Positions 16,125 to 48,059 of a stretch of DNA of 64,000 nt are shown in pieces (positions within the stretch are counted from its first letter, which is position 1; every line of letters starts with the position of its first letter). The stretch lies in contig OU612073.1 in assembly GCA_914767715.1 (NCBI GenBank), positions 24,306,001 through 24,370,000 of the forward strand, given 5' to 3'. The stretch is from Membranipora membranacea. Taxonomy: Eukaryota; Bryozoa; Gymnolaemata; Cheilostomatida; Membraniporidae. The notes beneath the pieces are model-generated. The model did not search any database. It was given only the letters and a program-made list of their open reading frames with translations, and was not told the origin of the DNA. Both the position numbers and the translations under genes were made by a program.

Positions 16125-16135
16125 ATAATAACTCT

Positions 16136-17515: not shown

Positions 17516-19908
17516 GGATTAAATTTATAAACCTCACTTGTTATTGCTATTGCTCATCAATGCCCTAATAGTTGCGCCAATTTGTGAATAAAGAAATGAC
17601 ATTTTTAGTCTAGTCAACAATGCCTTATATGGCAGTAACATATTAACATCGAAACTTTAAGAAAGGCTTGTTTTTGAATTAATTGATTGCATTAAATTTT
17701 TGCTTGGATAGAACAAGTTGCAGCATTATAAACTCTACTTAGTATCAGAATACTTAAAGGCATAAAATACTTCGCCAGGACTTGTTGTCAACAACTTGTT
17801 CAGTTGGACTTCAATGTCCGTCTCCTAAAGTTGAGAACAACAACTGACACTGTGGATCTCGGTAAGTTTGGTCCTATTCTTACTTGACTAGGTATTCCTG
17901 TCCACTTAGACTCTAATTGTCATAAACACAACTTGGTATCGGTTTACTTTGATTTCTATTTCAAACCAAAGTTTGATAATATTGAAATGTTGTGCTCATT
18001 TCATGACTCAATATAAATGTTGCCATTGTTAAAAAATCTCATATAAAACTGAAAAAAAGCTTTTTGGGTCCGAAATATTTCTGGACGGTATTTAGTGCAT
18101 TCATCATTAGCACGGAAGGATCTCTTGAGATTATTAAAACTAATGCGACTAAAATGTGGATGAGACTGGCTACTAGAAATATGTTCAAAATGTATGGCAC
18201 AGCAAGAAAAAATAAAATCATTGTGTAGCGGTCTAGAATGGAAAGCTAACCTGTCAGTGTGACTCATATCGGGGGTAATAATCTTAGTGGCACTGCTCTG
18301 AATTGCTCTAGTTTATCCAAGCAGGGGCTCCATAAAATAAAATGGAGTTAAGTCAGCGCATGGAATAGATCTTTGTCAGCAAAAAGGAGATGAGCTTACA
18401 GTACATGGCCAGATAGCTGGTCGAAATCAATGACCACCTGTAAAGGGGCGCATCACCAGTTATATAACCCCACATCAATGGCCATTGATAGCCATGCTTA
18501 TTTTATGTTATGTCCCAACAAAACAAGAGATGTCTCAATGTTTTTTTTATTTTCTACAATTTTGGCTTTTCAGCTACAACTACAAAACTGAGGCCACAAT
18601 CAACCAGATATTAATAATAAGATATTTATTATGAGACTTTTATTCAATATTTTAGAACAATGATTGCGTTTTATGTGTGATCAAATACCGAAATCAGATG
18701 TTTTGATCTTAAGATATGCCTGTAGCAGATAAATTAAGTAAAATGAATTATAAGTTTAACGTAATGAACATTATTGCTGCTTCTAGTATAGCGGAGTTAT
18801 CTTCCTCTTCAGTATGGGAGATAACTTCAATCACATGTAGTCAGTTCCTTGTATGATTACTCAGTATAAGCTGACTTGCGTGAAGCCTTAAAAGCTTGAA
18901 AGCAATGAACTAAATTACTAGTTCATTGTTGAAAGTAATAGACCCTTTTATTTAGTTTTAAATTTCATTTGTTTGTATATGTTACGATGGTTATACCAAA
19001 TAAAATGCTTTGAATAGAAATTAAATCTTTGCTTACTCGTGATGTTCGACGGAGGAAAAAATGGTTTTAACACTGAGAAGATAAATAGAACATTGGCAAC
19101 TGCTCAGCATCCTAAAAGTGGAGTGGAGTGGAGGTACAGCCACAAAGACGAGATGTAAGGTAGTACCACGCCTCAGTCTCTGCCAAACTCTACTCTTTTG
19201 AGAATAGATCTACTCTTTTTCCAATTCTACTCTCTACTCTTCTGCTTTTTTTTCAGAAAGCATGGTAATCTACTTTTTTTAAAGTTTGAGCTCATGCCGT
19301 ACCTATTTGTATACTATACCACAGTGTGTAAAGTCTTGGTCCATCGGTATATTGCTTCAGGTATCCACAGAGCCCTTAATTAAGGCATCAATGCATAAGA
19401 AATTCCACAGGAGGCGCCACATTTTTATGCACAAATAGACATTTACACAAATAGACATTTTTAGACATAAATAGTTGGCAGCCGTGCTGTTGAAGCTGTT
19501 TCAAGTCTGTGGTCAATGGATTATAACAAATAGTGGGGTAGACAGCTGGGTGAGTGCATAATAATATCCTAAGCAGCTCAATGTATTCTACATACTCAGA
19601 TGATGCTTCTACTCTTTCTGTTTAATATGGTTACTGTAATTTTGCTTATGAACTGAGCATAAGTACTAAGTTTTCATGAAGTTTCACAGCCCCTCCCCCC
19701 CCCCCCCCCCCCCTACTGTTTACTATCATTAAATATTTACATACAAGTACTGATCTGTTATCTTTGAGGTGATATTTCCTAATAAAACATGTTAGTAAGT
19801 TGAGGAAGTAAAGCTCTTGCTCACATCAGTTCATTACAGACACAGATAAAGTAGGGCAACGATTGTCCATACATATCACATTCATCACCTCACGCCACTG
19901 AGATCATC
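17516..19908. other. Intergenic stretch between the F-box pseudogene and gene
   Basis: AT-rich. A poly-C tract of about 20 bases lies at 19687-19713, 200 bp before the F-box start codon. No exon recognised. Some minus-strand codons at 18.0-18.27 kb look repeat-derived, but I could not assign them. Confidence 0.4.
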
Positions 19909-21450
19909 ATGGCCTCCTCAACTCTGGCATCAAAGAGACAAGCATCACACACAGAAGCTACAAATCTTCACTTTGACGTGCTATTACACATGTTCAAGTT
20001 TCTGGACCAGAAAACATTAGGTAGGTGTGCTAAGGTCTGCAGAAGTTGGAGAACGGTAGCTTATCAGACATCATTGTGGTCTGACTGCCTGTTTGAGATT
20101 CCTGCTACAGGTCTCTGTGAAGAGGCAGCATTAAGTCTCACGTCTCGAGGTGTGACAGCAGTATCAGTCAAACAAAACTGGCTCAGTATAATGCCTACAC
20201 ACAGTCACGAGAACCCCTATCCCTATGATTGGTACTTTGATACAGATCATAGTTTTCACACACGCTATAAAATAAGAGATTCACAGAAACACAATTTTCT
20301 TTTATGCGAGGATCAGTTGACACCCATATTGAGATGCTGCACAGAAACCCTGCGAGTTGAGATATTGGTTGTTATGGACTCACCGCTCCAATTTAATATG
20401 GCTACAAAGTTCACAGGGCTGAGAAAGCTCTGTCTGATAGATCCTGATATTGACATTGAAGCTTTTGTTGGAATTCTCGGATTGATGGAAAATCTGGATC
20501 AGCTGTATATCAACTCTAAAAATCGGTATGTAGAAAGCTGCGGAATCTTTCAGAAGAAGGACAAGCGTAGATTCAACTGCTTTGATGTCTTACAAGATGT
20601 AGTCCGTAGTAAGCAAAGTCTGTGCTCCTTAGAGTTGGTCAGTCTTAATTGGAGTATATCATATAGACCTCCTCCTGAACTACACTTTGGTAACACAGCC
20701 CAACTGGAAAAGCTGGTTTTAACGGACACAATGAATCTTTGTGAACATTTAGTTGCCCAGGTATCACAGAAGTTACCGCACTTGAAACATTTACACTTGA
20801 CCAAACTTACAACTGGTAACCCGACTAATTTACGAGCGTGCTTCCCTGCCCTACAGAGCCTCACTACACAGCTGGTTGAAACCGAGCCCAGTAATGAGCT
20901 CATATCTAATATATTACATAACTCTCCAAACCTGACAGCACTAGACCTTAGTGAAGGAGTGGATAGACCTAAGGATGACGACAGTAGTGAGCGCTTTGCC
21001 GTCTGCTTAAGACTGATCAGTTTGTGTCCAAACCTGAAGTTTGTCAATGTATCGGCTAGTGGGAACGTGGGCCATAAAGGTGTTCTCAAACTACTCACTG
21101 ATTTGCCGCACCTTGAGGTACTAATTGCTCTCAGTACTACCAGTACAGATGTACTACTGGAGGAAGAGAAACCAGAACAAGGATCTAAACAGCTGGTCAG
21201 TTTACTCGTTGAGAACAATCCGAGTTGGATAGATCAGCTACCGAGCCTGTCGTACAAGTATATCGCCGGCCATGTGTACATGAAGAGTGCAGATAACATC
21301 ACATGGAGAAGAGTGCACCGGGGATCTCATCATTGGAAGAAAGCGTTTGGCTGGAGTTACTTTCATTTACCAGATGAATACGATTTCACGAGTAGGTATG
21401 ATACTCCAGGTACAGCTTTGCAGTTATCTATACAAAAAGGACTACGTTGA
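19909..21450 (+). CDS. F-box protein with leucine-rich C-terminal region, single exon
   Basis: A 513-residue uninterrupted frame. Residues 19-62 form an F-box (FDVLLHMFKFLDQKTLGRCA, then VCRSW, W57), of the type that binds Skp1 in SCF ubiquitin ligases. The rest contains irregular leucine-rich segments (LRKLCLIDPDIDIEAFVGIL; LEKLVLTDT; LPHLKHLHL; SPNLTALDL; CPNLKFVNVS; LPHLEVLIAL) typical of FBXL-like substrate-binding repeats. The C-terminal ~80 residues are not LRR-like. The substrate is unknown. The start is the first ATG of the frame and gives a complete F-box. There are no introns, unlike every other gene here, which suggests retroposition or a lineage-expanded F-box family. The 3' UTR has a variant poly(A) signal ATTAAA at 21701-21706. 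The long opposite-strand frame is its shadow. Confidence 0.9.
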   Translation: MASSTLASKRQASHTEATNLHFDVLLHMFKFLDQKTLGRCAKVCRSWRTVAYQTSLWSDCLFEIPATGLCEEAALSLTSRGVTAVSVKQNWLSIMPTHSHENPYPYDWYFDTDHSFHTRYKIRDSQKHNFLLCEDQLTPILRCCTETLRVEILVVMDSPLQFNMATKFTGLRKLCLIDPDIDIEAFVGILGLMENLDQLYINSKNRYVESCGIFQKKDKRRFNCFDVLQDVVRSKQSLCSLELVSLNWSISYRPPPELHFGNTAQLEKLVLTDTMNLCEHLVAQVSQKLPHLKHLHLTKLTTGNPTNLRACFPALQSLTTQLVETEPSNELISNILHNSPNLTALDLSEGVDRPKDDDSSERFAVCLRLISLCPNLKFVNVSASGNVGHKGVLKLLTDLPHLEVLIALSTTSTDVLLEEEKPEQGSKQLVSLLVENNPSWIDQLPSLSYKYIAGHVYMKSADNITWRRVHRGSHHWKKAFGWSYFHLPDEYDFTSRYDTPGTALQLSIQKGLR

Positions 21451-22344: not shown

Positions 22345-25300
22345 TCAGTAGTAACTCTGAATTATGATGTCTGAAGCCTTTTCTCCGATCATCATCGCAG
22401 GAGCATTGGTATTACCAGACGTCAGATGTGGCATTATAGAGTTATCTGCTACTCTTAAATTCTCCAACCCTTGTACTCTGAAACAATCATGAAAGAAAAT
22501 AGATATCCGATAACTGAGAAAGTGACCACTATAAGCTCAGGTCACAGGATTCACTGTTATACATGACTCTATAACACTACAGGCCTGAGCATGACTAAAT
22601 AACATTCTAAGGATTAGAGTAATCACCACCCGAATATCACAGATAGTTGGACTAGCTCCAGTTAAGTGAATATAACTGAGTCATTCAACATACAAGCACT
22701 CAACAAATACAAGAATTATCTCTGAGATCATTTCCATTTTCAATGCATTGGATTCATCCTCTCCGCTTTGTATGTTTCTTGAGAACACATCCAACAACAG
22801 TTATCTGCTTGCAAATTCAAAATTCATTAAAACAAGATACAGCAATCAGATTTTTCAGTGTTGGTGGAGGATTATAGCTTCCTTTTATATCAGAACAGAA
22901 GATTGATATTATGTGATAGTGTAAAACAGACCTTAATAAAGGATCGACCACTGCAGTCGGATCGCCTTTAGCACCCATCTTACATGATCCAGCAGCATGA
23001 TAATCTACTCTAGTCATTGTAGATATAAACTCATCTATATATTCATCGCTATCAGGATCAAGGTTATAATCAGATCTATATAAGATGGGCTGATCAATAT
23101 GTGAGCGGGCGCCGAGTTGTTTTCTTTTATTGACATTGACTGGATGGCCGATTCTGTCTCTCTCACGCTCTCTCTCATCGATTAAATAAGCACCGAGATT
23201 CTGCATCTGGGCAGTTTTCACCAAATCTCTGACATATTTATAACCTGTAGTAAGGGAATCAAGGTGATTGTCATTAAGAGTATCTTCTCAACCTATTACT
23301 AACTTTACATGAAGACCCACATCCTTCATCCGCCCAAAAACTTCTTTTTGATTCATATGACTACTTCTTTTAACAACCTTCATCAACATCTTCGTTCATC
23401 AACAACTCTACGTACATTTAAATTTGCATTGTCAAAACATCTGTTATCATTGAATTGAGTTTTATTCCCTTGATTTTATTTCGATTGTTTTTTGTTTTGG
23501 TTTCTTTGCACATCAGAGAGAACATCTTCGGATGATGGTTGTTGCAATAAAAATGTATATGATGCATGCATATATGATGAGGCATCTAAGAGAGATCATG
23601 AAAATAACATGGTGAGATAAAGTTTCAAACAACGAAATATATAGGAAAAGTGGTTTAGCACCGATGGCAGAGATCCTCATTGAGCGCAACTTGAGATGAA
23701 CTGGACATGTTCAGCAAATGGGTGAAGACAGGCTTCATAGATAGCTTCTCTACTCACAACTGACCTCAGGAACAAGGAAGCAGGCACGTCCATGTCTTAG
23801 ATATAAAGATGTAGTGAAACGGAATTTGAAATGGAGAGACATCAAACCGGATACTTGGCAGACTGCAACTAAAGATCGAGCTGCATGGAGAACTATGACC
23901 GGAGACCATAAAATAGAACAGTCATCGTCGACCCAGCGGACTGCTTATGATGATGATATATATATATATGATCTTTTGTAATAACAATAACCTGCTGCAT
24001 AGATGGTTAAGACCTAGCATTATTAACAAGTCAAAAGTTTTAGAATGGGAGAAATCAAGTAAATAAAACAGGCCGAAACATTTGATAATGGATTAATTGC
24101 TCTTGGCTGGGATAAGGAAGGATAACTGAAAACTTGTGACCCTGTAATATACGATGTAGTAACTATAGCACAACAGTTCTATACACATTAAATATATTTG
24201 GCCACAGTGAACTTTCTCAGTAACTTCCACAAGGTAAACATCACCACTAATTTTTCACTATCACACCTATTCACACCATGATGCGTTATTAGCTCATTAG
24301 ACGGCAATCTATCTCGACCCATCAAGACAAACACTGGTACACCTCAGGGCTCCGTTTTAAGTCCTCTTTTGTTTTCCATATATACGGACCGGATTACGTC
24401 TGAATTGAGCAATGTTACCATAATCAAGTATGCTGATGACACCTGTATCATTGGCTGCATTTCCAATCAACAAGATCTAGACTCATACTTTAACGAGATA
24501 GACAGGATTTCTAAGCAATGTCCTGATTATGATCTTTTATTGAATGCCAGCAAAACTCAGGAAATATTATTTTCTACTCAACGAACTAAGCCTCATACCC
24601 CTCCTATCGTTTTAAATGGTGAAAGCATTACTATGTGTGACAAAGTCACTTATCTTGGTATTATGTTAGATCAAAAGCTGCGCTTTGAAGAACACATTCA
24701 GTCTGTTGTGAGTAAAGCTGAGCAGCGAATGTATATTGTCAGGAATTTTGTACATCTTAGCACCATACCCCTTGCCACTATGTTATTTAAAAGTTTTATT
24801 GTTTCCCTGCTCACTTATTGTTTACCAGTATTATACACTACTATTTTTGCTAAAGACAAGAAACGTTTGAGCAAGTTTTTTGATCAGGCCTCAAAGCTCA
24901 AACTCCAAGTAGATGATCTCGACAGCCTTATGACTAAGCGTACCAAAACACTTGCCCTCCGATATATCCATGACGATGACCACTTTATGAACAACATTCT
25001 TGCTAAATGCCCCTCAGGCAGGTATCGAACAATTAAACACAGAAGTGCCTTTGGTAAAGACTGTTTTTGAGGCATGCTATCCATATTTTAAATGATATTC
25101 TCTTTTAATCATCCATCTATTTTTCCTTGTATGTGCTGGCTCCTTTTCAGTATGAACACCCTTATCTCGCAACATATTATTTTATGTTAGTGATAGAATA
25201 CAATCAATCAATCAATCAATAAAACTTGCGGATATTGAGCTACAGGCCTATACCTCTTACCTGCTTTCATTACCTGTCTATCATGAGGATGAGCGAGCAG

Positions 25301-30935: not shown

Positions 30936-31272
30936 TTTGTCAAGACATCATTTTCAGTGGTCTGGTAAAGGAACCTGAAGCGTGACTATTGAGGTGACAA
31001 GTCAACATAGCTTGCATGTAAAGCAATGGGGAAGTGAATAGAGGTGTTGATTGAGAGGCCGTAATGGTAGCCTGATGGATGAGATGCATTATACTCTTTG
31101 ATAATGTGGGCACATATATATACCAGCTCTTTGTTTATTATTTGTAAGAGGTAATCAGCTCACAGCTGATTGAATTAGCTGTGTGCTGTAGACCAAACAT
31201 TTATTTTTGAAATGCCTCACGTCTCTTTTCAACAATCTGATTTATCCCTTTTCAGTATTTCTCTGTAAGAAG

Positions 31273-34200
31273 ATGGAGTCCTATCAGCTCCAGGTTCAAT
31301 CGCTGCTTAGTCAGATGAGGAACGACGATAACATAACTGAAAGCTTGAGTGCACTGAACCACCTGCTCCCTACATCACACGAGAGCTCATGTCAGCTCTA
31401 TCCCTTCTGTAGTGATTACTCGTCAGCTCGTAGGTTCTACATGTCAGGACCTTATGAGACTCTTCTCTATAAACTCCTTGATCTGATGGGAAACATCCAA
31501 GTATTCACCGCACACAGTAAACTGATCACAGTGGCGTTTACTGAAGGCAGGCATGATGCAGCTTTTGAGGTAATTTCTACTGATTTGATTCTACTGATAC
31601 TGATCACCTGCGATTGACTTTTGATATTTATTTCTGTAATCCCCACCATACTGAGCTTATCCTTTATTTATATAAGATTGCAACCTGTCAGCGGATAGTA
31701 CATGAGGGACTTATTTGCCTAATGTGCCCAAACAATACCTTGCCATGTGGTGCTTACCAATCGATACATGAAGTGAAGAGAATGGGTGATGATGTGATAT
31801 ATCTGGATATCCAGGCCGTCTGTTAGAGCTGTATATATAACGTGTTTATTATCATGATTCAGGTACTTAGTACTGGACTAAGCTCTAAGTACAGCTCCCT
31901 GACTAACGAGAGATGTCTGTACCTCGTCACACAACTCGTATCATTCAACAAACTATCAGATGTAGTGAAGAAGAAATGTGCTGATGAGACGGTCATGTTT
32001 AATGGAGAGTTTGATTCTCTGATACAGGCCATAGTGAATCTGCCGGACCGAGCTGCTAACAGGTATATAAGTCTGTTTAGTGCAATGCCTCTGTTCTAAC
32101 ATTGAAGTCAGCTCAAACAAGCCCCCCCCCCCATATTTATTAATTTTCCCTCAAATTTTGCCGTAATTTCTTTGGCATGTTATGGAAATCATCCGTCCAA
32201 TAGTGTATATCAGTGTAAGCGAAGCCGTTTAGTAACATTCCTGTCTTGAGAGAAACATATAATGTTTATCCATGTTATACTGAACTACAGCTCATGTTTG
32301 CTCAAGAGAAGATTTGATGAGCACATTAGCTGTGTGACGATCATGACTGACTTCACCGATTATTGTCTAGAGCTACAGTTTCTTATTATATTATGGTATC
32401 ATTGTATCATCTACACATATAATAGTAAACATGGTCCCATACAGAGGGATCCATTGTGTTCCCCTCTTTGATCGATTGAAAATAAAGTTCAAATTTATCA
32501 TTATTTATTTATTTCACTAACAAAAATCAACACAAGAATCTGTATGTTTAGATTTCAACGCAATGTACCAGAGCCGCTTCAAAGAGACCAATATTATCTC
32601 ATAGTATTCAAAGCCATACTAACAGGGCTGCATGCTGTCAAGTCACGTCTAGAACTGTCCATGCCCAGCTCCGTGGCCTTTGTCAGCCAGCTTGTGGGTA
32701 AACTGTGTCTAAACGGACACGCCACAGATCTGTGGAAACATTTGTTGGCAAACATCATGGTAAGCTCTGTTTCTACAATGATATCTTCTATATACAGTCT
32801 TGGCTTATTACTTAGTTTTGGAACACCACATCACTTGTAATGTATTGAGTCTTATAAATAGTTTTACCCATCACAATATGCGCCAACCATTACTCTAAAT
32901 GTAGATTATCACTCCTATCAATGTCAATGTAATGCACTATTTCAGCTGACTCTTCTGTGATTTTATATTTGGTAGATGAGTCAGGATTTCTTGATCTCCC
33001 GAGTATTCCATAAGGTTATATGTGGCATTCCCCTGAAATGTCTCGACGCTACAATCATACCACTGCTTAAGTGTGTTCATCATCATGAAGACCTCTCTGC
33101 ACTGCTCGGCAATACAATCATAAGTATGTTATTAGTAGACCTGATGCTTATGTCTTGTGTGAGGGCTTGTGATATTGCCCTCTAGTAAGGTAGTTCATTC
33201 GCTTTACAATCTTTCGTGAACAATCGTATTTCTTTTCCTTAGCGGATGAGGGAATTTGTTTTCAAATTTACAAAACTTGAGTCTACTCTCTAATTACAGT
33301 AAAACCCATCAAAGCCCGTATCAGTGAAAATCGTGTATATCAGAATGCTATAATAATGATAGTAAATCTGATTTTATGAATGTTTCGTGATATCCTTTTG
33401 ATTCTCTAGTTGTCTCTGTATATATGATGTATATATGATGTATATATGATGTATATATGATGTAAATATATATATGATGTATATATGATGCTTTATTATA
33501 GACACTACAAGATTGGAATATTTGATAATGGATAAATTATTCCTACACAAATACTACACGACTCCCGATGTACACTTACTGCTGTATAATGTGGTGGGGT
33601 ATCTGGCCTCTTCTCCCAGTCGTGTGGAGCTATATCAGGATCTGGCTGTCAAACTTCTACGTGTGTGGTCTGATAACAGTAGCATCAGGTAATACCTTCG
33701 GAGAATACCTACGGGGAATACCTAAAGGGAATACCTACGGGGAATACCTATGGGGAATACCTAAAGGGAATACCTACAGGCACTTCTAGAATCTTACTTG
33801 ACTTTGATCTTGCCCTAATCCTTATTTCTCATTGGACCAGCTGCTAGATACAAATTCATTACAGCAAGTAAATAAAGTACCAACTGTTTACATTGACAAA
33901 TTCAGACCATGTTGTTAATATCATCATGTAGAACACAAGATTCCCTCTTTATCCCTTGCCTCCTTTATGATTTATAAGTTCGGTACTTTCATCAAAGATT
34001 ATAAATACTATCGTTGTGTACAAAAGCAACCATTCAAAGTGGCACCTCTTTTCTCATCATGTATTGTTAGTGTAGCTCTATTGTTCGTCTGAGTGCAGGT
34101 AGTTTTATGGTTGACCTCTCCGTGTTATATAATGTATTTTTGTATATTACATACATATTAAATTTTGGTATATTACAGACATTATTATGTTTTGAATATT

Positions 34201-37200
34201 ACAGACATATTATAATTATTATATTACAGACATATATCATTTGACCAGCACATGTATATCAGTAAGGCTATAGTTGTATGCGCTGCATTCATGAAGCCTC
34301 TCAAGAAGGCCGATGAGGCAGATATAATGAAGATCATAATGTCAGGATTACAGAATCACCTGGAGAGCAGTAACCCTTGTATGAGGAGAGTCGGTGAGTT
34401 ATCATACTGTGACTAGTACTTGAGATCTTTGATGTTCTAGGGGATAAGGTATGTGTTTTGTGTATGCTGTTGAATATTTAAACAAATTCAAAATCAGCTT
34501 TACACCACTATTGGTCGATTGTTTGACCGACCTTAGACAGAGCGACTACCATGGAAAACATGGTTATTACTGTTCTTTTGAAGAATTGAGAGCAGAGTAC
34601 AGGTTTAGTTAAGATGGCATAATTATAGCACTGTCTTGAGACAGTGGGACAACAAGGCCTTATGGGCGTGGCCACAATGCTTGCTGACAAGCTGCTCTCA
34701 GCTTATATGCCTGTCAAAGCAGACTTGAAAATACATGGTACCCTAGTAGTTAGTGGTTAGTAGAAGAACTGAAAATAGACCTATGCTACAGGGCCGGTAA
34801 AACGCAATCATTATTGTCACTGTACATTAAAAGCAGATGATCTTTCACATTCCTTTTCCTGTTCATCAATCATAAGGCTTATATCTCTGTATTTATATCC
34901 TAGTATACTTTATTTTAATTACCAGGTATGTCGATAGCGCAGATTATAACACCGATTGTTCAGCCTAAAATAGAGAAGAAACTAGAATTTGACTTTGACT
35001 CAAATGTAGAATACGAGACACTGAGGAGCTTTCTCAAACCTCCCTCTAATTTACCAGACAGCTACGGACTGACAGATCAACCTTCAGTTAATACTGAGGG
35101 GAAAGATGGTAAACACACAAAATCTCCTAAAAAGAAGGTATGTGGTTTGTGTTTAAATATGTTTCTGATTATTCAAGTAGATGATGCTGTCATAGTAAAA
35201 AAGGAGGAACTATCACAAGGTACTATTTATAGATTGCTGTATGTTGGAAGGGAACCCTGAGAATCACAATCACACTATTGAAGAATTCCAAATCACCCAT
35301 CTATAACAGCAGATGGACAAATTGATTTTTGTGTTTCTTCTCTCTCAGCTGGCTAAAGAAGACTTGGATAGCGATGATGACTTAGAGCCGATTGGTAAGT
35401 TTGAAGATAAGCCACGCCCATCACATAGACCACCCGGGTATCTTGGTGAATGTATGCAGGGATTGATGGATGATGAACACCCTGATAGAGTAGAAAGCTG
35501 TCTGAAGGTGGCGAGCAAGCTCATCAGAAAGAACAAGGCCATGGTGCAAGAGGTAACCTTACAAGATTAGATAGAGCAAAGATATAGGGAATCAGTTGAG
35601 TTAGGATATGGTCCAATTATGAATTCCTGTAGAACAAAGCTTATGCATTGCATATACAATGGTACTCCATAGGTTGCTTGATAAAACTACATAATGATAG
35701 AAAGCATCATGAGAAACCAGAGTTATCTGCTTAATGTCAAGGAGAGAGCAACTTAAAATTTTATATGGTTCATTTTTACCACAGACATCTGTGTATTGTC
35801 TACGATTTTTACTTTCAAGGTTCTTGTGTTTTGAACACAATATCTGTACAGACTATCTGGTTTGGTTCATTGTGAGAACCTAATCAAAATGATATCAAAC
35901 CTTCCCTATTTGTAGATTTCAGTTGAGTTTGCTAAGATCCTTCTACACATGGGTAGTACCGTCGCTATAGAGAGTTATATGGTATACAGGCACCAGTCTT
36001 TAGTGTCACTCTTGGTTATGTCACCACAGCCTGTAGCTGAATATCTGTGTGCTCAATTCAAATCTAGAAACTACAATGTTAGACAGGTCAGTGGATAGAG
36101 AGATGTAGGCTGAGTGTGGGCCATGTTGTGACGCTGTCATCTATTGAGTCTGTCATTTTATGAGGCTATTATGGTGCAGGTGTCGTGCTTCAGATGCTAG
36201 CTGATCGGAACAAGAAATTGTTCCAACTGAATACTGCCACGTTGATTTGTGTCGGTAAATTCATGAGAAAACTGACATAATTCTGACAATACCACGTACA
36301 ACACAACACTGAATATGCCTCCTTTTCCTTGTAGTTGTTATCTCATTTCATACCCATGCCAAATCTCTAACTGCATTATATCCCATCTTCATATCTTCTC
36401 TCATCATTCATAAGTGCTATGAGATAGGTTATTTATTTTTACAGAGACTTGATATTTTGGATGCCTTGGCTGCTGGTGCGATGGAGTTGTCCGATCCTAA
36501 CGCTCAGCACGAGCAGAAAACTGCTAAATTGGTAAAGGAAGTCAAGAAGATGGACATCAACAAAACAACCAAACCAGGTAACCACGGTGCAAGCATTCTA
36601 ATCTAATTCAATTCAGATATATCTACAAGAGGAATGAATGAGGTTTGATTGAGCAGATAAAGGAGACAAGCTCTTAAGCCTATATTCCGCTCAAACTAGT
36701 GGTTGACAGCACATATGGATTTATTTATCATTACTCTAGACGTCATAATTTATTCAATTGTTATTGTCAAAAAAAGTGAAAGGTAACAAGCTCTTCACAT
36801 TATATGTGTTAGTTCACACACACTGGATATTAAAATAGTTTTAAAAAAGCCATTTATGTTCATGGGATTGTGTGATTGATAAATATAGCACAACCCAGTG
36901 TTTACGCTAATATGATCCTAGGGTGGCTGTAGAGCAATCTAAATGTCTGTTCAGGTTAAAATCATTTACTACATCTGACTATAGTTGGTAACACTCTCTT
37001 CTATCTCGAGGATTAAAATCTCTATTAACTTTTAAAGTGATGAAAGCATAGTGCTGTGTATCACTGCCCGCACTAATTATCTCAAGTTAATGACTTAATA
37101 CCAATATATCACTTAGGTATATTTCTGTGCCATTGTCATAAACTCATTGCCAAAATTATGATTTGAGAGATGTCAAACTATCTACTGCATTGCACTTGGG

Positions 37201-40200
37201 GAATCTCAAGGATACAACAAGGAAACAGATTGTCATTTGACTTTTTTGATATACGGTTGTATTATTGAAGGGCAGTGACCAGGGCCATAGTTTAGAAAAA
37301 CAATTATGGGTGGGGGGGGGGACACAAATTTCAGATGGTGCAATGCAACACCAGCTCCTTATGGAGGGCATTGGGTGACATTTTGACGAGAAGAATGCCC
37401 CATGACTTCTTGCCTCCAGCTGGCTCTGACATGGATTATTCAATTATAATGCTTTAGGCCGCTTTATTTAGCTTTGTAGGGGAGGCAGCCCCTTCCTGCC
37501 TCCCCTATGACTTCAAGCTTAGTAACATTCATCACGGTGATATGGTCATTAAAAGATCATTTAGAAAACAAACTGTAGAATCTATTGAGGAAATATCAAG
37601 GAAGCTAGTCTTACGAAATCTATTGGTAAGTAGTGCTACTCTTCTAATGAGAAAGTATTTTGATGAGATAACCATCATATGATGCTGGAGACTGGACTAA
37701 TTGAGTTGAGTTTTTAAAAATTCTTCATACGCTTTATTATGCTTTTGGCAAAATATGTGTATGCCGGAACAATTCTCTGCTTTCTTCTGATATCACAGGT
37801 AGGAACTTAAAACTTTGACTGTTGTTTTTGTGTATAGATCCTGGAAATGTGTTTATGTAAGTGTCATATCTTTGGATTGTTGATAATGTAATTACCTCGC
37901 TCTGTGGATATTGATATTTAATACCTGATAGACTGTATCAGTGATTGTTAAATATGACACTTTTTAAATTTAACTGTTAGTTTGTCACATCATTATTTGT
38001 TTCTGTATTCTGTATCTGTTGTAGTTTTCTGACGCACAGAGACTAGTTCCTGCCCCAGGACCAATTAACATCTGTCAAACACGTATGTGTGATCTTAATT
38101 TCAACCTATTCTGTGCAGAGTATGAACGTGTTTATCCAGCAGTAAGTTCTATTACATATTGTATTACACATGTTTAAAATCAAAGTTTGCATAACCGGTA
38201 TTCACTGCATTCAATTCTTAGCCAATATCCGTTATATAAAACCACAGGCAACATCATATCCTTATTTGATCACATCCACTGATATAAGAACACAAATCTA
38301 AGAAACATTGAGCAAATGCGCTGTTTCTTTCTTTATAGCACTGTCGGTGCAGCGTATGTGTACGATGCATGAATACAACTGAAGTGCCACCAGACTGCAC
38401 GGGTGATAACAAGAACGGACCTCCGCAGCTCTTCCTAGGCTAATCCTAAGCTTGACAAAGCTTCATCGCTATCTTCCCTCCCAACAATAATTTTTCTGTC
38501 ACCTTTTTCGCTCTCTAATGAGTCGTTTTAACAGATAAAGAAGAGATAAATAAATATGCTTTCTTGAGTGCAGTTTATTTGCTATTCGCTTTAATGATCA
38601 AACCTTGTTCATAGATTACCTGTTCGACAGGATCTTGCCTTACCATGCATGTGGTCCCCAACAACAAAATGATAAATAAGACATCCTTCCTCCAGTCATT
38701 ATTTTTCTTGCTCAGCGTGGTCACAATATACATATAACAGGTCTGGTTTACGGTCAGTGACCAAAATTCGAGCAAGCAGTAAGTTATTATACACTGTGGC
38801 TTCTTCATGTGTCCCTTCTATATACACATTGAAATATGTAACAAGTCATTGCTGCTATATTTAACACAACACTTTTATTGTCAGCAGCAAATCAGTATTG
38901 TTATTTATTCTGATTATGAGAAACTTGTAAAGTAAACTAATATGGGGCTTGGTGGAGACTTGCTAACAAGGGCACGTTCTCTACTAGTTAAAACAATTCT
39001 TTTGGTTGCCTGTTGTTCAGTAGAATGGCCTTGGTAAACCATAAATGGCGTTTGAACTTATTCTCTTGTGGTAGAGAAGGTACATTAGTCAACTTCCTGA
39101 ATAAATTCACATAAAGCTCCCAGCTACCGACTATGGGCAACATCAGTCTTTTAGTCGAACCCACAAAATCTCTCAATAATCTGTTTTTGCTCCATTGTCA
39201 ATTTGGTTATGATAAGCCCCTGAATATAGCCGATGATATTATTCTGTGCAGTAAGCCCAAACAGCACTTGGGCTAATTGTTAATTTGCTGTACACTGAAA
39301 AAAAATGCTTGGAGGATCCATGCATCACAACATATAAAAAGTATATAAACTTTAAGGTATTGAAAGGCAATAGGGAATATGAAAACCTAATGGTGATTGG
39401 TTATTTTGACCTTAGTGTCTAAAAAACCAATAACTTGTCACTCACAGAATTTAGCTAGCGATTACATATCCCCTGTAATCTGCACCCTGATGTGTATTTT
39501 GAATATTTGATCCTCTTTCGACCTGAATGTCATATACAGCTAAGGATTGATGTCTAACTTATTGACTACCATTCTTGGCCAGCTCGACAAATTCACCACA
39601 CACTAAAACCATATTTATGATTCTATCTATGATTACCTTTAGAACCAGATTGGAAGGCGATAGTAGACGCCCGTGTAAAAGCTAAGACGAGAAGATTTGC
39701 GAAGGCCTCACAGTCTACACCTCAGGGTACAGCTAACAGATTTGCTAATGTAGCTGGAAGCTTCTTTTTCCCTCTCCTAGCGGTAAGCTCTCTAACTCAC
39801 TCTCTACAAAACCTAATTTGAGACACTGTATCAAGGAACATTTTCTGCATGCCTGTTTTATTGGCACTATTTGTGGATCATATTTCCTCCTTAAAAATGC
39901 ATCAGATAGACATTTTTGTATTATTGAGTCAACTATTTTGGCGTGATATTCGTATTGGATGATTCTGTTGGAACATTCTTACTAATAGCTGTCCACAATA
40001 ATATTCATGGTAAATCTGCTTCTAGTATGATCAAGCTTATTGTGATCATGTTGAGTTATGGAACAAGTATTTTTTGACAGGCTGCTAACACCTATGAAGG
40101 AGAATACAATCCACTATCAGCTGATCTTATATTACTAGTACAGTACCTGTATACTCTGGGGAAGATAACAGCATCATCACTGAACTCACCTCTGGTCAAC

Positions 40201-40951
40201 AAGATCGCTCCCGAGATGCTCGCCCTATTCTGGGTCTTCAGGTCTGATTACTAAAACTATCCCAGGCATGAGTGTGTTTGAGAAGCTGCCTAACAGCCCT
40301 TAAATGTTCAAACGGAATGTAAATTGTGCAGGGATGTAAAATTTTTCTTCTGCATGGCCCGGCGGTAATGGTAAAGCACCATTATCGAAACGATATTATG
40401 AACACATTAGCTTTAACTTGGCGGATAATCAAACATTACTATGTCCATTGATCCAATCTCTTACTTCCTGGTAGGTTTAGATATCAAAGTATGATCAATT
40501 TCAAAATAAGCTTTGGTGTGTCCTCTTCCTAAATGATCACATGTCCATCATAGACAAAAAGCTCTCTGCTCCTATGGTTTATGTTTTATAACAACTACTA
40601 GCTAATCAGCATAGATGTAAGCTCTGCACAGCTCATGTAACTAACCTTTGACCTCTCGTGTACTGTAGATCATCTGTTGAGAGAGAGGTACGTAAAGCTG
40701 CTATGTTCTGTTTAGCCATGTCTCTGATGATTATACCTCCTACAGACTTACTAAGTATGTACGATATGGCCGATAACCGTGAATACCTCGAGGCTCTATC
40801 TGAGCGCGACCCTGACCCCGATGTACGCGACATGGCCGGCAAGGTGGTCACTTATCTCCGAGCTCAACTCAAGGTCAGCCTCGATAAATCCCTGGCCGCT
40901 AATAAAACCTCTAAACTCCTCGGCGAAAGCTCATCAACTAAGTTTAGGTAG
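31273..40951 (+). CDS. TELO2: TELO2 (Tel2 homologue), complete
   Basis: Thirteen exons join in phase to 835 residues (human TELO2 is 837): 31273-31569, 31863-32062, 32552-32759, 32976-33123, 33502-33688, 34230-34393, 34926-35137, 35349-35552, 35916-36086, 36445-36577, 39643-39782, 40081-40241, 40669-40951. TELO2 is the HEAT-repeat core of the TTT complex, which with R2TP/Hsp90 matures PI3K-like kinases (ATM, ATR, mTOR). The acidic linker has EDLDSDDDLEPIG around S480, matching the DSDD motif that in mammals is phosphorylated by CK2 and bound by PIH1D1. The conserved Tel2 C-terminal domain follows at about 495-610 (RPPGYLGECMQGLMDDEHPD; FAKILLHMG; RLDILDALAAGAMELS). ATG 31273 was chosen because a probable 5'-UTR splice acceptor precedes it; ATG 31207 is in frame but upstream of that acceptor. 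Confidence 0.93.
33418..33490. repeat. Short ATGATGTATAT tandem repeat in a TELO2 intron
   Basis: About six copies of an 11-12-bp TATATATGATG unit just before the acceptor of the exon starting at 33502. Confidence 0.8.
33689..33782. repeat. GGGGAATACCTA minisatellite starting at a TELO2 splice donor
   Basis: Units of 12-13 bp (GGAATACCTACGG, GGAATACCTAAAG) begin directly at the GTAATACC donor after 33688. Confidence 0.8.
34536..34790. repeat. Dispersed repeat, copy 2 (SINE-related)
   Basis: Near-identical to 30690-30935 except for an 18-bp insertion (TTATTACTGTTCTTTTGA). It lies in the TELO2 intron between 34393 and 34926. Confidence 0.85.
37739..38443 (+). CDS. Small secreted cysteine-rich protein, nested in a TELO2 intron
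   Basis: Three short exons (37739-37798, 38025-38141, 38339-38443) join in phase 0 to 93 residues and end at TAA. Residues 1-25 form a signal peptide: the hydrophobic core YAGTILCFLLIS ends at FSDAQ before RLVP. The mature part, about 68 residues, has eight cysteines. Three are in exon 2 (NICQTRMC, LFC) and five in exon 3 (HCRCSVCVRC, DC), enough for four disulfides, plus one N-glycosylation site (NTT). Donors are GTAGGA and GTAAGT, acceptors TTGTAG and TTATAG. A poly(A) signal AATAAA lies in the AGATAAATAAATA tract near 38547. The gene is on the same strand as TELO2, inside the 3-kb intron 36578-39642. I do not recognise the cysteine pattern; the function is unknown. Confidence 0.72.
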
Positions 40952-41418: not shown

Positions 41419-44400
41419 TTAGTCTTTAATCTCGTTATATATCGTATATTCATCGAAGTCTGCCCCTGTCACATCTTTACCTGCGCCACCTTCTAGCTTC
41501 TTTTCTTTCTCAGCCTTCAGAATTCCGTACTCGTTCAGCTCTCCTAAATATCACACAACATACAATATGTACACTACTCGTTCAGCTCTCCTAAATATCA
41601 CACAACATACAATATACACCCTACTCGTTCAGCTCTCCTAAATATCACACAACATACAATATACACACTACTCGTTCAGCTCTCCTAAATATCACACAAC
41701 ATACAATATACACACTACTCGTTCAGCTCTCCTAAATATCACACAACATACAATATATACACAACATACAATATACACACAACATACAATATATACACAC
41801 AACATAACTTATCATTTAATATCTGCCTGGTGTTCCAATCTTCTTCTTAGTGACTATGGTACAATTGTATTTGGGCGGTTGCTCTAAAATTCATGTATGA
41901 ATAGCCAACAGTCTAGAAGGAAATCCCCTCTTGTATTGATTTGGATCTTTATTCCAGTTCATGAGACATTCAATGTGTCTGTTATTAGGAAGTCTCACTT
42001 ACCCTGATCATAGATGGTGTACTCATCAAAGTCTGCCTTGCCATCGTGCCCTGCTGCTCCCTCCATCTTCTTCCTGGCTTGGTCTCTCAGAACTGCATAC
42101 TCATTCAGTCCACCTGCAACAGTCGATCGGATTGAGAAAATGAACTAACAAAAATATTGTCAATGTACTGAAAAATGAAAGGTGTGGATCCACAGATATC
42201 ATATCTTATCTCACCAGGTACTTTGTTGAGTGGAGATAGTGGTAGACAAAGTTTTATCCTATTTGCCTGTGTTTCGGGACAAACCCCTTCCTTCTGGGAA
42301 GAAGCCGCCGGCTCGAGGGGAAGTAACTCCCAATGTTAGATAATTAGATCAAACTTAATCGAGGGTGGGGACATCTCAACATCAACAACTTCCTTTGATT
42401 GAATAAGGCAATTTGATTGTGAAAACCCTTCACCACCATTTGACCATGTTATAGTACCGAGTTATACATGTGAAGGTTTTATTTTTCAGTCGTTATTTAT
42501 TTCTAAGAAGCAGCATTTTACCTACCTTGGTCGTATATTGTGTATTCATCAAAGTCGCCAGTCTTATCCAGTCCAGCTGTAACAAAATACATATTTATTC
42601 AATAACTCAGATCGGCTAGGTGATTTTCTGCTCTAAGAAAGCCCATTCAAATAAACTTCACCATTAAAAATCAGAACTATGGTACTACCATTAAACATCT
42701 GTCCCAGAGGCTGAGTGATAATGCATCATATACCCTTACAGCTGACTTGTTTCAAGTGCCCAAAAATTGTTGATGATGAGTGCTGCTATGAACCAGTTAA
42801 CTGCACTTCATTTTAATAAAACCTTTAGCAGTAGCTTGAGTTTGTAAGTCTTACCCGCTCCAGCTTTAGGACCACCTGGCACTGGTCCCTGATCATATAT
42901 TGTATATTCATCAAAGTCAGCCCCTACTTGTTCACCCTTCTTTGGGTTCCTGACACGCTTTTTTGTCGCCATCCTATTCCTGGTAGAAGAATAGAAAGTA
43001 GAATATAAAATGGTTCGACTGCTGAGTGTTTCTCCTACACAATCATAGCCTGTTGATCTGGTTTTCACCCTGTATGAAAAGTTGTGTGGTAATCAAAATA
43101 ATTCGTAGACTGGCAGGCTATGACCAGAAATTATTATTATGAAACTAGCCCATCTTGATGTACAGAATAGAAAATTTGTTGAGCAGTTGTACCTTATTTT
43201 AGGACGTCCTGATGCTCCTAGCCTCACTCTCTTCTCATCTTTTTTCTGAGGTATATTTGGGATGACTCCTGGTATGCCCTGATCGTAGATAGTGTACTCA
43301 TCAAAGTCAGCTGTGGTGTCTAATCCAGCTCCTCCCTCCATTTTCCTCCTGGCAGCATCTTTTAGTATTCCGTATTCATTCATAGGTCCTGTGGTAGTGA
43401 AAGTTATGTTTAAGATTAAAACAAACCAGATTGCGGAGTAATGACACCACAGCTTCTGGGATGTTGCTAGAAACATACCAGGCATAAGTATAAGGTACGG
43501 TCGTCTGCCCTTTATGTGTGGGTGGACAACTCAATATTGTCATTAGATTTGCTATGACTATGCTTTTCGATTCGGAATTAACTATATCTTTACCTTGATC
43601 GTAGATAGTGTACTCATCAAAATCTGCATTTGCATCCAGGCCAGCTCCTCCTTCCAATTTCTTCTTGGCTGCATCTTTCAGAATTCCATATTCATTTAGC
43701 TGCCCTGGGAGCAAAATGATAAAAATATCATCGGTGACTTTAAGCAGCTCATTTTATCCATTTGATCTTCAAGCTTACCATAAGAAAGCTTGTAGTTTTA
43801 ATTCACTATTTGGATTTTTAAAGATTTCTCACCTTGGTCGTAGATTGTATACTCATCGAAATCGGCATTAGCGTCTAAGCCTGCTCCGCCCTCAATTTTC
43901 CTCCTGGCCTCCTCCTTCAGTATTCCGTACTCATTCAGCTGTCCCTGATCATAGATGGTATACTCATCAAAATCACCCACGTGACCTGCTATATCGTCTT
44001 TGGGCTTAGCTAAAAAATCAGTATCAAAATAAAAATATCACAGCCTCATTATGGTTTCTGTCCTCTTAAATAACGTATACCTTTCACTCACTGCTACCAC
44101 GCAACGTTACTCTTTGGCGTCTATGATCGTAGATGCAGACGAGGGTTGTGGGGGCGGGAGTAGGAATCGAACTAAGGCCACCGGAGGCACCCATCGTGTA
44201 GTAAGGAATAACTAGCACGTCAGCCAGTCCCAACATCCTTAAAAAACTATGGGTAGATGGCATTTTTACAAAGCTTGCTGAACTCCGGAGCACATGTATG
44301 TCCCACTTATCCACTTGTATTCTGACTTCCCTTGATGACAGCTAGCTTGGCTCGGCTCTCGACTTATAAAAGTGAGGCGCGCATGATATTGAGAATTAAA

Positions 44401-47400
44401 TGATGAGTCTGAATATTAGTCTATACTGGTCCATTTGTAAGCTATGCTTCACTTACGCGGTGGTATAGAACCAGGTCTTTGTACTGGCGCTCCAGGCACT
44501 GCTGGTAGAGGTCTTGCGGCTCCTGGTATTGCAGGCAGTGGTCTACTACCGGTAGCCGCACCGGTTCCTGTTCCTGGTCTGCCCTCACCGCCCTGCGTTG
44601 TCATCGCTCCACCTTCTGTCTTCCTCTCCCTAAGTTGAGAAATGAGATGAAAATCTGGCATTTAACTAATTGTTTAACATAATATTGTAGCAGCTATTGC
44701 CTCACAACCTTTATGACACCTGCATTCTAAAGATTGCCTGTCAAAAATAGTAAATCTTTAATAGTTTGTATCATGTCATTAATTTTAATTAGAATATAAT
44801 CATTGACTTGATTTATATGTTCACCTCTCAGCTTTGAGAACTCCGTATTCATTCATAGGACCCTGATCATAGATAGTGTACTCATCAAAGTCAGCATTAG
44901 CGTCCAGGCCTGCTCCTCCCTCCATCTTCTTCCTGGCAGCCTCTTTATGAAGTCCGTACTCATTGAGTTGACCCTGATCATAGATGGTGTACTCGTCAAA
45001 GTCGGCATTCGCATCCAAGCCTGCTCCTCCCTCCATCTTCTTCCTAGCAGCCTCTTTGTGAAGTCCGTACTCATTCAATTGGCCTGAAATAAGTATGAAA
45101 AGTCCAAAGGAAATGAGACTACAAGGCCAAAGGACATGTGACAGAACAATTGGTCCATCAAGCTTCATTGATTACAGCTTCTAGTTCTACTGGTTATTTT
45201 GAGGACACTCTTTCACTTTGGATAACTCATAACCTGTTCTCTAAGTGTCAGTTACATTTCAGAAATACACTATGAGCTTTTTATAACAAATTGTCTACAA
45301 ATTCTCCCTCACCTTGGTCATAAATAGTATACTCATCAAAGTCAGCGTTGGTATCGAGACCTGCTCCTCCTTCAAGCTTCCTTTTGGCAGCGTCTTTGAG
45401 TAAACCATATTCATTAAGCTGTCCCTGGTCATAGATGGTGTACTCATCAAACTCTGCTTTGGCGTCAAGAGCATCAGCTCGTCCTGTGTAATTGATACAA
45501 ATAAACTTGATCAATTGAGAACTTAAGTTCTGTACTCTCCAAAGAGTAGTGTGACCATAATCAACGATAAAAATGTAACTACAGCAGTACAATTATTTAC
45601 AAGTTTGTTTTGAAGTGAAGACTGGGTTTGAACTATTCACCGGTTAGATCAGCAGCTCCATCAAGGTAAAATTAAGTTATTCCATAACTTGTTCATAAAT
45701 ACCAAGTGCCAAATTTATGGTAATGGTTTCTTTCACCAGAAACGAAAGATTTAAAATCTGGTTAATCCGTTGTTTTGACTTTTTGATATGATACTAACAA
45801 TAACCAAATGCTGAAGTGTGGACCCTACTCAAGTCCGACTAGATTTTTGTGATGCCCTTGCTCACCTTTAGCACCTGTGGTTGGTAGGATTATACCCTTC
45901 TGCATTGGGGCTTTCGGTAGTGGTCTCGGCCCTGGGGGCAACTGAGGTAGGGGTCTGTTCGCCATTGAGACAATTGATTGGTTACTGGGAGAAGGTTGCT
46001 AAAATAAATTTAAATATATCATAGAAAATTTGTTGCAAACACCTTAGTGAATGAGAAGTAATTTAATAACAAAAAATCCTCTCCTACAAGCTAGTAAAAC
46101 TTTATATGTATCAATGGTCTTCACTCCAATGTACATTTGGTATACTTTGGTATAATGAAGACTCCCGCTGTCTCCTTCCCACCTCAAAAAATCTGCTGTC
46201 ATCTTTTTCTACTGATGCCTAAAGTTTAACGTCATGAATTCACTAAGGTAGACTGTGTACTTATATATATAAGGAAAACGTTTAAGAATAACTTAAGTCT
46301 TTTTTCATCACATATAGTTACCTTGTTTACCATTGTAGAAAAATAAGTGTTTCCTCATCAATGAACTCACCATATTCATTGCCGGTATATACATTTGCGG
46401 GCCTCCCTGTGGATAGGGCATTATCCCTGGTTGAGACACTCTCCCCTGTTCGGGCATCAAACCTGGTTGAGACAACCTCCCCTGTTGAGGAGGCATCATA
46501 CCTTGTTGAGGCATCATGCATTGTTGAGAAGGCATCATCCCTTGTTGAAGCATCATCGCCTGTTGGGGAGACATTCTCTGTGGCATTGGGCTGCAACCTG
46601 GTGTTGAGCTCATCGGCGTAGATCCTTGAGATGATGTAAACATCATACTTGGAGTGGAAGTTAACTGACCCCCAGCTAGTCTCTTTTCCAACTCGACAAA
46701 ATGTGGAATTATCCTCTGTCTTCCTCCTGTAAAATAAATCCGAGGGAAACAGATAAGCAACAGCTCAGTAAATAAATGCAGTACTTTTAACTTACTGTTT
46801 GGGGCGCAGAATGTTTTGTGTTGGTCTTGAAACAAGATGAACAAGAATGTACTCTTACCAATCGTGCTGATGTCAGTCTCAAATATACCCAGTCTCTGCA
46901 TCTCCTGGGGACTATTCAGAGTTTGAGTGATGGTTGTTGCTCTAACACCCATATTATAGAGTCTTATGAGGAATTGGTTCATATCTAACATTCCACCTGT
47001 ACTAGTTGTTCGCCTAGCCTCATGAACTGCTTGTCTTATTTGATGAGTGTGCATCATATAGTTCTGAGGCTGTACCTGACCTGTCAACAGGGGACAACTC
47101 TTATAACAAAGGTTAAATATCATTATACCTATGACGTCAAAGGTGTCAGCTAAATGTTGCAACGGCAAATGATATTGACTCATGATAGAGAGAAGGGGAA
47201 ATGATCTGAACCGAACGTAAGTATTACCCAAACGTGAAGTTTCATAACCCACCTCTTGACTGGCACGCCGCACATGAGCAGCAGCCTATAGCTACTACTG
47301 CTGTCACCAGCACTGTTACAGACAGAACCGCTATCCATAATGTAGACGAGGACCACTCAGGGGGAGAGACGCTAGCTAAGTCTGGTCCAGCTGAAAATTC

Positions 47401-48059
47401 CAAATAGCAAAGTGAAAATATCTTACTTTAATCAGAAAAATAAAGACGAGCCTAATTCTCATTGAAATTCTTCTTCTAGAGCCTAAAGTAAAAAAGCATT
47501 TTTAAACCTAAATGGCAACATAACAAGACTCACAATGTACAGGCATCAGTACTAGGACAAACTTACAAGGATTCTTACCCGTAAACTATGACTGCTATGG
47601 TAAGTTTGTACTGTGTTAGTTAATCAAGTCAAAATATACCATCAACAGATGAAATCATGATAATTAATACTCTAATTCATTTTTGCTTTGGTACTCAAAG
47701 ATTTGATGTGCTCAGAATTTATTCAGGTTTTTACTGGACAAGCATTCTGTTGTTGATAGGCCCACTTAGATGCCACAAAAAAGCGACCTTATTATAATGA
47801 TCAAGTAACAGTTGCGTAGACTTGCTCTATGCCGTTTATGAAAAAAGTGTATTAGCCATCCATTCAGCTTTCTTAAAAGAACATGGTTTGCTATGCTAAA
47901 AAAATGCATCAATGAACAGAAAATTAAATAGACAATATTCATTCACCCACCTTTGCCATCAACCTTGCTAAGACCCAAACAATATATGGTCGGTGTAAAG
48001 AAATGGAGGATCAAGCCTATCCACAAAGGACAGGTCCTGATCTTATCTCTCCAACGCAT
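41419..48059 (-). CDS. Single-pass membrane protein with twelve FDEYTIY modules and SH3-ligand motifs
   Basis: Sixteen exons join in phase to 825 residues: 47951-48059, 47253-47390, 47129-47149, 46859-47080, 46371-46726, 45866-45998, 45313-45483, 44825-45083, 44457-44629, 43833-44009, 43594-43704, 43193-43388, 42855-42979, 42526-42576, 42003-42113, 41419-41543. An in-frame TAG lies two codons before the ATG. Domains: signal peptide (LWIGLILHFF, residues 12-21); ~20-residue ectodomain; membrane span 54-74 (LWIAVLSVTVLVTAVVAIG); Cys cluster GCCSCAAC, probably palmitoylated; helical region ~90-190; Met/Gln/Pro-rich region ~200-282; RPLPxxP motifs at 297, 307, 499 and 509. From ~327 to the end, FDEYTIYDQ occurs twelve times, nine paired with (L/M)NEY(G/A). 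It resembles vertebrate transmembrane adaptors (LAT, PAG) in plan, not sequence. Inferred: a scaffold phosphorylated by Src-family kinases. Least certain: the 21-bp exon and the first exon. Confidence 0.8.
41528..41762. repeat. Five 47-bp tandem copies of a splice acceptor plus exon start
   Basis: The unit TACTCGTTCAGCTCTCCTAA, ATATCACACAACATACAATA starts at 41528, 41575, 41622, 41669 and 41716. On the minus strand each copy carries ATTTAG/GAGAGCTGAACGAGTA, the acceptor and first codons of the last exon of the tyrosine-repeat gene. Only the first copy leads into the real exon. A TATACACACAACA tail continues to about 41812. Confidence 0.95.
44110..44260 (-). mobile_element. Possible tRNA-derived SINE head
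   Basis: On the minus strand GACTGGCTGACGTGCTAG resembles an A box, and TTAGTTCGATTCCTACTCCC a B box. Spacing is tRNA-like, but the body differs from the other SINEs here. It lies in an intron of the tyrosine-repeat gene. Confidence 0.4.

Follow-up and report, generated by a model that had tools for sequence, protein, structure and literature searches.

The closest described systems are the membrane adaptors LAT, NTAL and PAG/Cbp, the repeated substrate p130Cas, and the adaptors that carry immunoreceptor tyrosine-based activation motifs (ITAMs). LAT has a very short ectodomain, one membrane span, a membrane-adjacent CxxC motif and a long tyrosine-bearing tail, and Grb2-type YxN tyrosines are a feature of both LAT and NTAL. 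PAG/Cbp is a membrane adaptor with several tyrosines, a CxxC motif, proline motifs and a C-terminal PDZ ligand, while Cas contains 15 YxxP repeats within a disordered domain. ITAM adaptors pair with their receptors through a charged residue within the membrane span, and the two halves of the TCR-zeta ITAM are separated by seven residues. Here, we describe a gene from the bryozoan Membranipora membranacea, located in a stretch of 64,000 nucleotides (contig OU612073.1, positions 24,306,001 to 24,370,000; hereafter the window, in which positions are counted from its first letter), that encodes a predicted transmembrane protein with twelve near-identical FDEYTIY modules. We consider it reasonably probable that this protein is a single-pass phosphotyrosine scaffold of the plasma membrane, a substrate of Src-family and Syk-type kinases and a high-valency hub for SH2 proteins, which would work like LAT plus p130Cas while being a member of neither family.

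Tyrosine modules and membrane half

A six-frame scan of the whole window identified twelve FDEYTIY-type motifs, all on the minus strand at positions 41437-45451. They are contained in a single gene on the same strand, which runs from an ATG at 48059 to a TAA stop codon at 41419 and encodes 818 residues in one frame. The FDEYTIY peptide is invariant in all twelve modules and is always preceded by D or E, while the columns further upstream vary, a pattern that resembles that of a linear motif. It is followed by DQ in eleven modules and by NE in one. Nine modules read DEYTIYDQGxxNEY, in which the first tyrosine and the tyrosine of NEY are 11 positions apart (YTIY-x7-Y), and the other three lack the subsequent NEY motif. 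The six-frame scan detected ten NEY(G/A) motifs, nine of which are present in the spliced protein; the tenth, NEYG at 46369, belongs to a reading frame of exon 4 other than that of the spliced protein. The RPLP motif was found seven times in the window, four times within this gene and three times elsewhere, and the gene contains four RPLPxxP motifs, which are placed as pairs in exon 5 and, among the modules, in exon 8. A preliminary description of this DNA had listed twelve FDEYTIY modules with the last ending in YTIYNE, nine NEY(G/A) motifs, four RPLPxxP motifs and a juxtamembrane GCCSCAAC, and all of these were recovered by the scan and in the spliced protein. The tail contains 37 tyrosines, 21 of which are preceded by E and 12 by I, giving 33 of 37 with E or I at position -1, and the net charge of the repeat region is -33.

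To compare the modules at the nucleotide level, we calculated uncorrected Nei-Gojobori proportions of synonymous (pS) and nonsynonymous (pN) differences. The ten-codon cores of the twelve modules (66 pairs) showed a pS of 0.81 versus a pN of 0.02, and the seven units that are exactly 37 residues long (21 pairs) showed a pS of 0.66 and a pN of 0.11. Two of the nine NEY motifs were left out of the latter set, one that starts a unit of 38 residues and one with no module within 40 residues. Even the closest pair of units, both located in exon 7, has a pS of 0.42. Synonymous differences between the modules are close to saturation and the peptide is unchanged. Since recent copies would share silent sites, which the modules do not, the modules are old and their peptide has been kept by selection. 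Gene conversion is an unlikely cause of their identity. Five of the nine module-bearing exons have phase 1-1, and two of these five are exactly 111 nucleotides long and contain one 37-residue unit each.

The predicted membrane span covers approximately residues 52-74 (47278..47346, minus strand), with a best 19-residue hydropathy of 2.6. It contains no charged residues, and the first charged residue beyond it is Arg82. Residues 1 to about 30 look by eye like a signal peptide or a signal anchor, and the ectodomain would be only about 20 residues long if a signal peptide were cleaved off near residue 30. The span and its flanks suggest that the tail is cytosolic under either reading of the N-terminus. 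The GCCSCAAC stretch (47263..47286, minus strand) contains two overlapping CxxC motifs at residues 73-79, which are probably palmitoylated and represent a candidate site for this modification. The signal peptide, tiny ectodomain and single span that had been proposed for this protein were thus retrieved by splicing and hydropathy, the signal peptide by eye. Following the cysteines, the region encoded by exon 3 was modeled from one sequence as four helices, with a mean predicted local distance difference test (pLDDT) score of 69.9.

Kinase genes, proposed mechanism and alternative explanations

The genome consists of 18 contigs and 339 megabases (Mb), and our searches of it scored the best candidates only. 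Of the 57 candidates scored in the search for SH2 domains, 44 were exon-level matches above the family cut-off with an expect value (E) of at most 0.001, and 14 control genomes gave no match. We read the neighboring exons around two of these matches and confirmed the domains with Pfam; both gene readings are partial. A Src-type gene (C4:2394100-2405600) contains an MGNCLS start, an SH3 domain, an SH2 domain in two exons and tyrosine-kinase exons, ordered and on one strand. Src was among the best matches to its catalytic exon in the PDB, where the two top matches were, in this order, an entry labeled EGFR and a reconstructed Src-Abl ancestor. A Syk-type gene (C4:24386700-24392800) contains two SH2 exons and kinase exons, also ordered and on one strand. 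Its first SH2 domain is nearest to ZAP-70 and next to SYK in the PDB, and its catalytic exon matched ZAP-70 and SYK directly under one entry labeled EGFR. Separately, two adjoining SH2 matches (L040 and L042, G000:C9:12128490-12131610) resemble by eye the SH2 pair of an SHP-2-type phosphatase, and no phosphatase motif was seen near them in the 30 kilobases scanned.

According to the available part of PMC5889215, Lck and c-Src show a strong preference for I, L or V at position -1, and ZAP-70 shows one for D or E. The available part of PMC11136658 states that Ile at this position is generally selected by tyrosine kinases, and that SYK and ZAP70 favor sites with phosphorylated residues on their N-terminal side. 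Together with the counts of tail tyrosines, these preferences suggest that each module consists of a putative Src-type site (TIY) beside a putative Syk-type site (DEY), and that a further predicted Syk-type site (NEY) comes after nine of the modules. The acidic residue before each DEY tyrosine had been taken as suited to Src-type and Syk-type kinases alike; it agrees with the preference of ZAP-70, but not with that of Src and Lck.

The tiny ectodomain and the uncharged span would anchor the scaffold in the plasma membrane, and the RPLPxxP motifs may hold a Src-family kinase via its SH3 domain. We take RPLPxLP to be a class I Src SH3 ligand. The docked kinase would phosphorylate TIY, the second tyrosine of the module with Ile at position -1, along the tail. 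Next, a Syk-type kinase would be drawn in and phosphorylate the Glu-preceded tyrosines in DEY and NEY. This would yield as many as 33 phosphotyrosines, to which SH2 proteins would be recruited at high valency. The available part of PMC2689226 describes that the repeated region of p130Cas is phosphorylated processively by Src bound to its polyproline region. Here, two kinases would act in relay on a high-valency strip at the membrane, for which SH3 docking, phosphorylation and its order, and SH2 recruitment are predicted from the sequence. The preliminary description had proposed a phosphotyrosine scaffold for Src-family kinases; the adaptor architecture and the presence of both Src-type and Syk-type kinase genes are in line with this, and the function itself stays putative.

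Several observations weigh against the proposed scaffold. The protein contains no immunoreceptor tyrosine-based inhibitory motif, no YxN, YxxP or YxxM motif and no ITAM, and the modules fit none of the SH2-binding classes tested. A single match, TIYNEI in the last module, resembles an immunoreceptor tyrosine-based switch motif. The preferences at position -1 are broad and come from measurements with vertebrate kinases, and later studies of p130Cas suggest stochastic phosphorylation, as given in the available part of PMC2689226. The second SH2 domain of the Syk-type gene aligned over only 25 of 77 positions and scored 22.9 bits, just above the cut-off of 21, and the scanned stretch did not reveal the last kinase exons of this gene. 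Finally, the repeat was modeled from one sequence without a regular fold at a mean pLDDT of 44.0, which is not proof of disorder.

Compared with LAT and NTAL, the protein has a similarly short ectodomain (with the signal-peptide cut placed by eye), a single span and CxxC motifs at the inner face. It differs from LAT by its near-identical repeats and its RPLPxxP motifs, neither of which, to our knowledge, is present in LAT, and by its lack of YxN, which means that the Grb2-type sites of LAT are absent. The acidic residues around the tyrosines are similar to those in ZAP-70 substrates, as described in the available part of PMC5889215. However, there is no detectable sequence relation to LAT or NTAL in Pfam, the PDB or a set of 5.8 billion proteins, of which the animal coverage is not established. 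The protein shares the build of a membrane adaptor with tyrosines, CxxC and proline motifs with PAG/Cbp, but its C-terminus is YNEIKD rather than a PDZ ligand, and no sequence relation was detected in the same searches. Similar to p130Cas and Sin, it has a long repeated substrate tail and proline motifs of the Src SH3 type (four RPLPxxP, with predicted binding), but it differs from p130Cas in having a membrane span, no YxxP motif, and no SH3 domain among the Pfam hits up to an E of 10. The protein thus appears LAT-like in its membrane half and p130Cas-like in its tail, and lacks tested features of each. The likeness to LAT and PAG that was originally suggested holds for the membrane half, but not for the tail, which has no YxN and with its RPLPxxP motifs and repeats is as much like that of p130Cas. 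It probably arose separately from the vertebrate immune adaptors, and no finding speaks against an independent origin.

A different explanation, which we regard as unlikely, is that the tail is ITAM-like, so that doubly phosphorylated YTIYDQGxxNEYxx(L) would bind the tandem SH2 domains of Syk and the protein would be a nine-fold TCR-zeta rather than a LAT. The spacing of 11 in nine of the twelve modules, with a YxxL second half in seven of these nine units, recalls the repeated paired tyrosines of TCR-zeta and DAP12, and the genome contains the Syk-type gene with its two SH2 exons. The preliminary description does not mention this ITAM-like spacing. However, the consensus YxxL/I-x6-12-YxxL/I has no match in the 818-residue protein, strict or wide, because the residue at +3 of the first half is a tyrosine in all twelve modules, giving YxxY rather than YxxL/I. 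Furthermore, the spacing represents one inherited event rather than nine, and roughly 0.1 of the possible offsets would give a spacing of 10-12. The span also lacks the charged residue for receptor pairing that is typical of TCR-zeta and DAP12-type proteins.

It is still less probable that the modules form a structural or adhesive 37-residue repeat with unphosphorylated tyrosines, either as an assembly domain or as a luminal tail that is cross-linked through tyrosine. The modules are spaced by 37 residues in seven of the eleven intervals, and a net charge of -33 would also be possible for a luminal or material protein. But FDEYTIY is kept where this register is lost, at spacings of 92, 59 and 28 residues and alone in an exon of 17 residues. 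The RPLPxxP motifs sit among the modules, the first charged residue past the span is an arginine, and the repeat was modeled without a regular fold, all of which argue against a structural repeat. Least probable, to a degree that makes it very doubtful, is a mis-joined gene model in which the exons for the signal peptide, the membrane span and the helical region are part of a gene separate from that of the repeat exons. Exons 1-5 contain no module, and their joining to the rest is read from the DNA. On the other hand, all exons are on a single strand and in one frame, with 14 GT-AG introns of 128-560 nucleotides, and the RPLPxxP motif is common to exon 5 and, between modules, exon 8.

Returning to the scaffold, a more far-reaching version of it may be put forward tentatively, although we think it rather improbable as a whole. 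One protein would both recruit Syk with its ITAM-spaced tyrosines and serve as a Syk substrate in the manner of LAT, with built-in docking for the Src SH3 domain. It would be a self-amplifying high-valency Src/Syk hub with twelve modules kept identical by selection, which arose independently of adaptive immunity. Vertebrate immune cells split the Syk recruiter and the Syk substrate between two proteins, and these would here be united. If the scaffold is as proposed, the LAT-type design of a membrane anchor and many kinase-matched tyrosines, served by Src and then Syk, has two or more evolutionary origins, of which the second lies outside the immune system of vertebrates. The twelve identical modules make valency directly testable, and the Src-type and Syk-type genes located here provide the organism's own enzymes for this purpose.

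Exon organization of the gene

The coding sequence could be joined from 15 exons, all on the minus strand, with consensus splice sites that were picked by hand and then spliced by script. The 16 exons given in the preliminary description are not needed, as 15 suffice for one open frame. The joining of the exons was deduced from splice sites, phase and frame, and the transcript is predicted in this way. An in-frame TAG is located two codons 5' of the ATG. The encoded parts are, in order, a signal-peptide-like start, a short ectodomain, the span, the two CxxC motifs and roughly 100 residues of helical appearance (exons 3-4), followed by an M/P/Q-rich stretch, two RPLPxxP motifs, four modules, two further RPLPxxP motifs and eight modules.

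Exon 1 (47951..48059) contains the start codon and the segment that by eye resembles a signal peptide, MRWRDKIRTCPLWIGLILHFFTPTIYCLGLSKVDGK. Exon 2 (47253..47390) encodes the short ectodomain, the predicted span and the juxtamembrane cysteines, and exon 3 (46859..47080) the predicted helical juxtamembrane region, for which no relative was found. The end of the helical-looking region and the M/P/Q-rich stretch are encoded by exon 4 (46371..46726), which contains repeats at the DNA level. Intron 3 between these two exons (46727-46858) is 132 nucleotides long and open in frame, and its retention would add 44 residues without a stop codon. The motif scan placed the two RPLPxxP motifs of exon 5 (45866..45998) at 45945-45956 and 45915-45926, and modules 1 and 2 in exon 6 (45313..45483), with FDEYTIY at 45431-45451 and 45320-45340. 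Modules 3 and 4 (44980 and 44869) are located in exon 7 (44825..45083), which contains a 111-base tandem repeat, and the second pair of RPLPxxP motifs (44533-44544 and 44503-44514) in exon 8 (44457..44629).

The remaining modules were likewise assigned by the motif scan. Exon 9 (43833..44009) contains modules 5 and 6 (43951 and 43840), and exon 10 (43594..43704) contains module 7 (43601) as one 37-residue unit of 111 nucleotides with phase 1-1. Module 8 (43285) is located together with a basic linker in exon 11 (43193..43388), module 9 (42895) in exon 12 (42855..42979) has no subsequent NEY, and module 10 (42533) stands alone in exon 13 (42526..42576), which is only 51 nucleotides long. Exon 14 (42003..42113) contains module 11 (42010) and is again 111 nucleotides long with phase 1-1, while exon 15 (41419..41543) contains module 12 (41437) and ends with YTIYNEIKD and the stop codon. 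A 47-base tandem repeat (41528-41762; five copies, 97% matches) is located in and beside the last intron. It copies the acceptor site and the first codons of exon 15, with four more copies upstream of the acceptor that is used.

Relatives and neighboring features

No second copy of the gene was found among the genome candidates scored. The N-terminal 200 residues gave four matches at E 1 or better (five candidates scored in the 339-Mb genome), which correspond to its own exons, and all nine genome matches to the repeat were located within this gene (nine candidates scored). A degenerate DNA pattern for DEYTIY occurs at 16 places in the genome, 12 of which are in the gene and four elsewhere, compared with three for the reversed control. 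One of the four (L013, G000:C1:20742175-20742192) is located in a tyrosine-bearing open frame, QYSADYTFSTPTYRKPEGSDTDEYTIY, and is possibly another receptor tail. The other three have stop codons close upstream or downstream, and no coding context was seen for them.

No relative was identified in the set of 5.8 billion proteins, neither with an E of 0.001 (7995 candidates scored) nor at E 10 with residues 40-185 (303 candidates) or residues 320-818 (7996 candidates), which is weak evidence for the absence of relatives given that the animal coverage of the set is not established. The searches against PDB sequences gave no match, or six at E 0.66 and worse in one of them. Pfam returned only DNA_pol_B_thumb (E 0.15) and CDC48_N (E 0.17), which are not significant, and two NCBIfam matches, at 23.9 and 12 bits, stayed below their cut-offs of 324 and 350. 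Among prokaryote genome contigs, 34 stretches fitted a pattern and none was confirmed, and among viral contigs two fitted and none was confirmed. Judged by titles and the beginnings of abstracts, we found no paper on such a protein, which does not prove that none exists.

Other features in the window include two related reading frames located side by side at 16061-16908 and 19855-21447. The first appears to be broken into overlapping frames and the second has an F-box-like match (E 1.5e-10). A retroelement reverse transcriptase (RVT_1, E 1.7e-15) is located at 24282-25067. Plus-strand open frames at 31192-40948 end near the 3' end of the scaffold gene on the other strand. The last of these has a HEAT match of 20 bits, which is under the curated cut-off of 23.5, and by eye the frames resemble a TELO2 relative.

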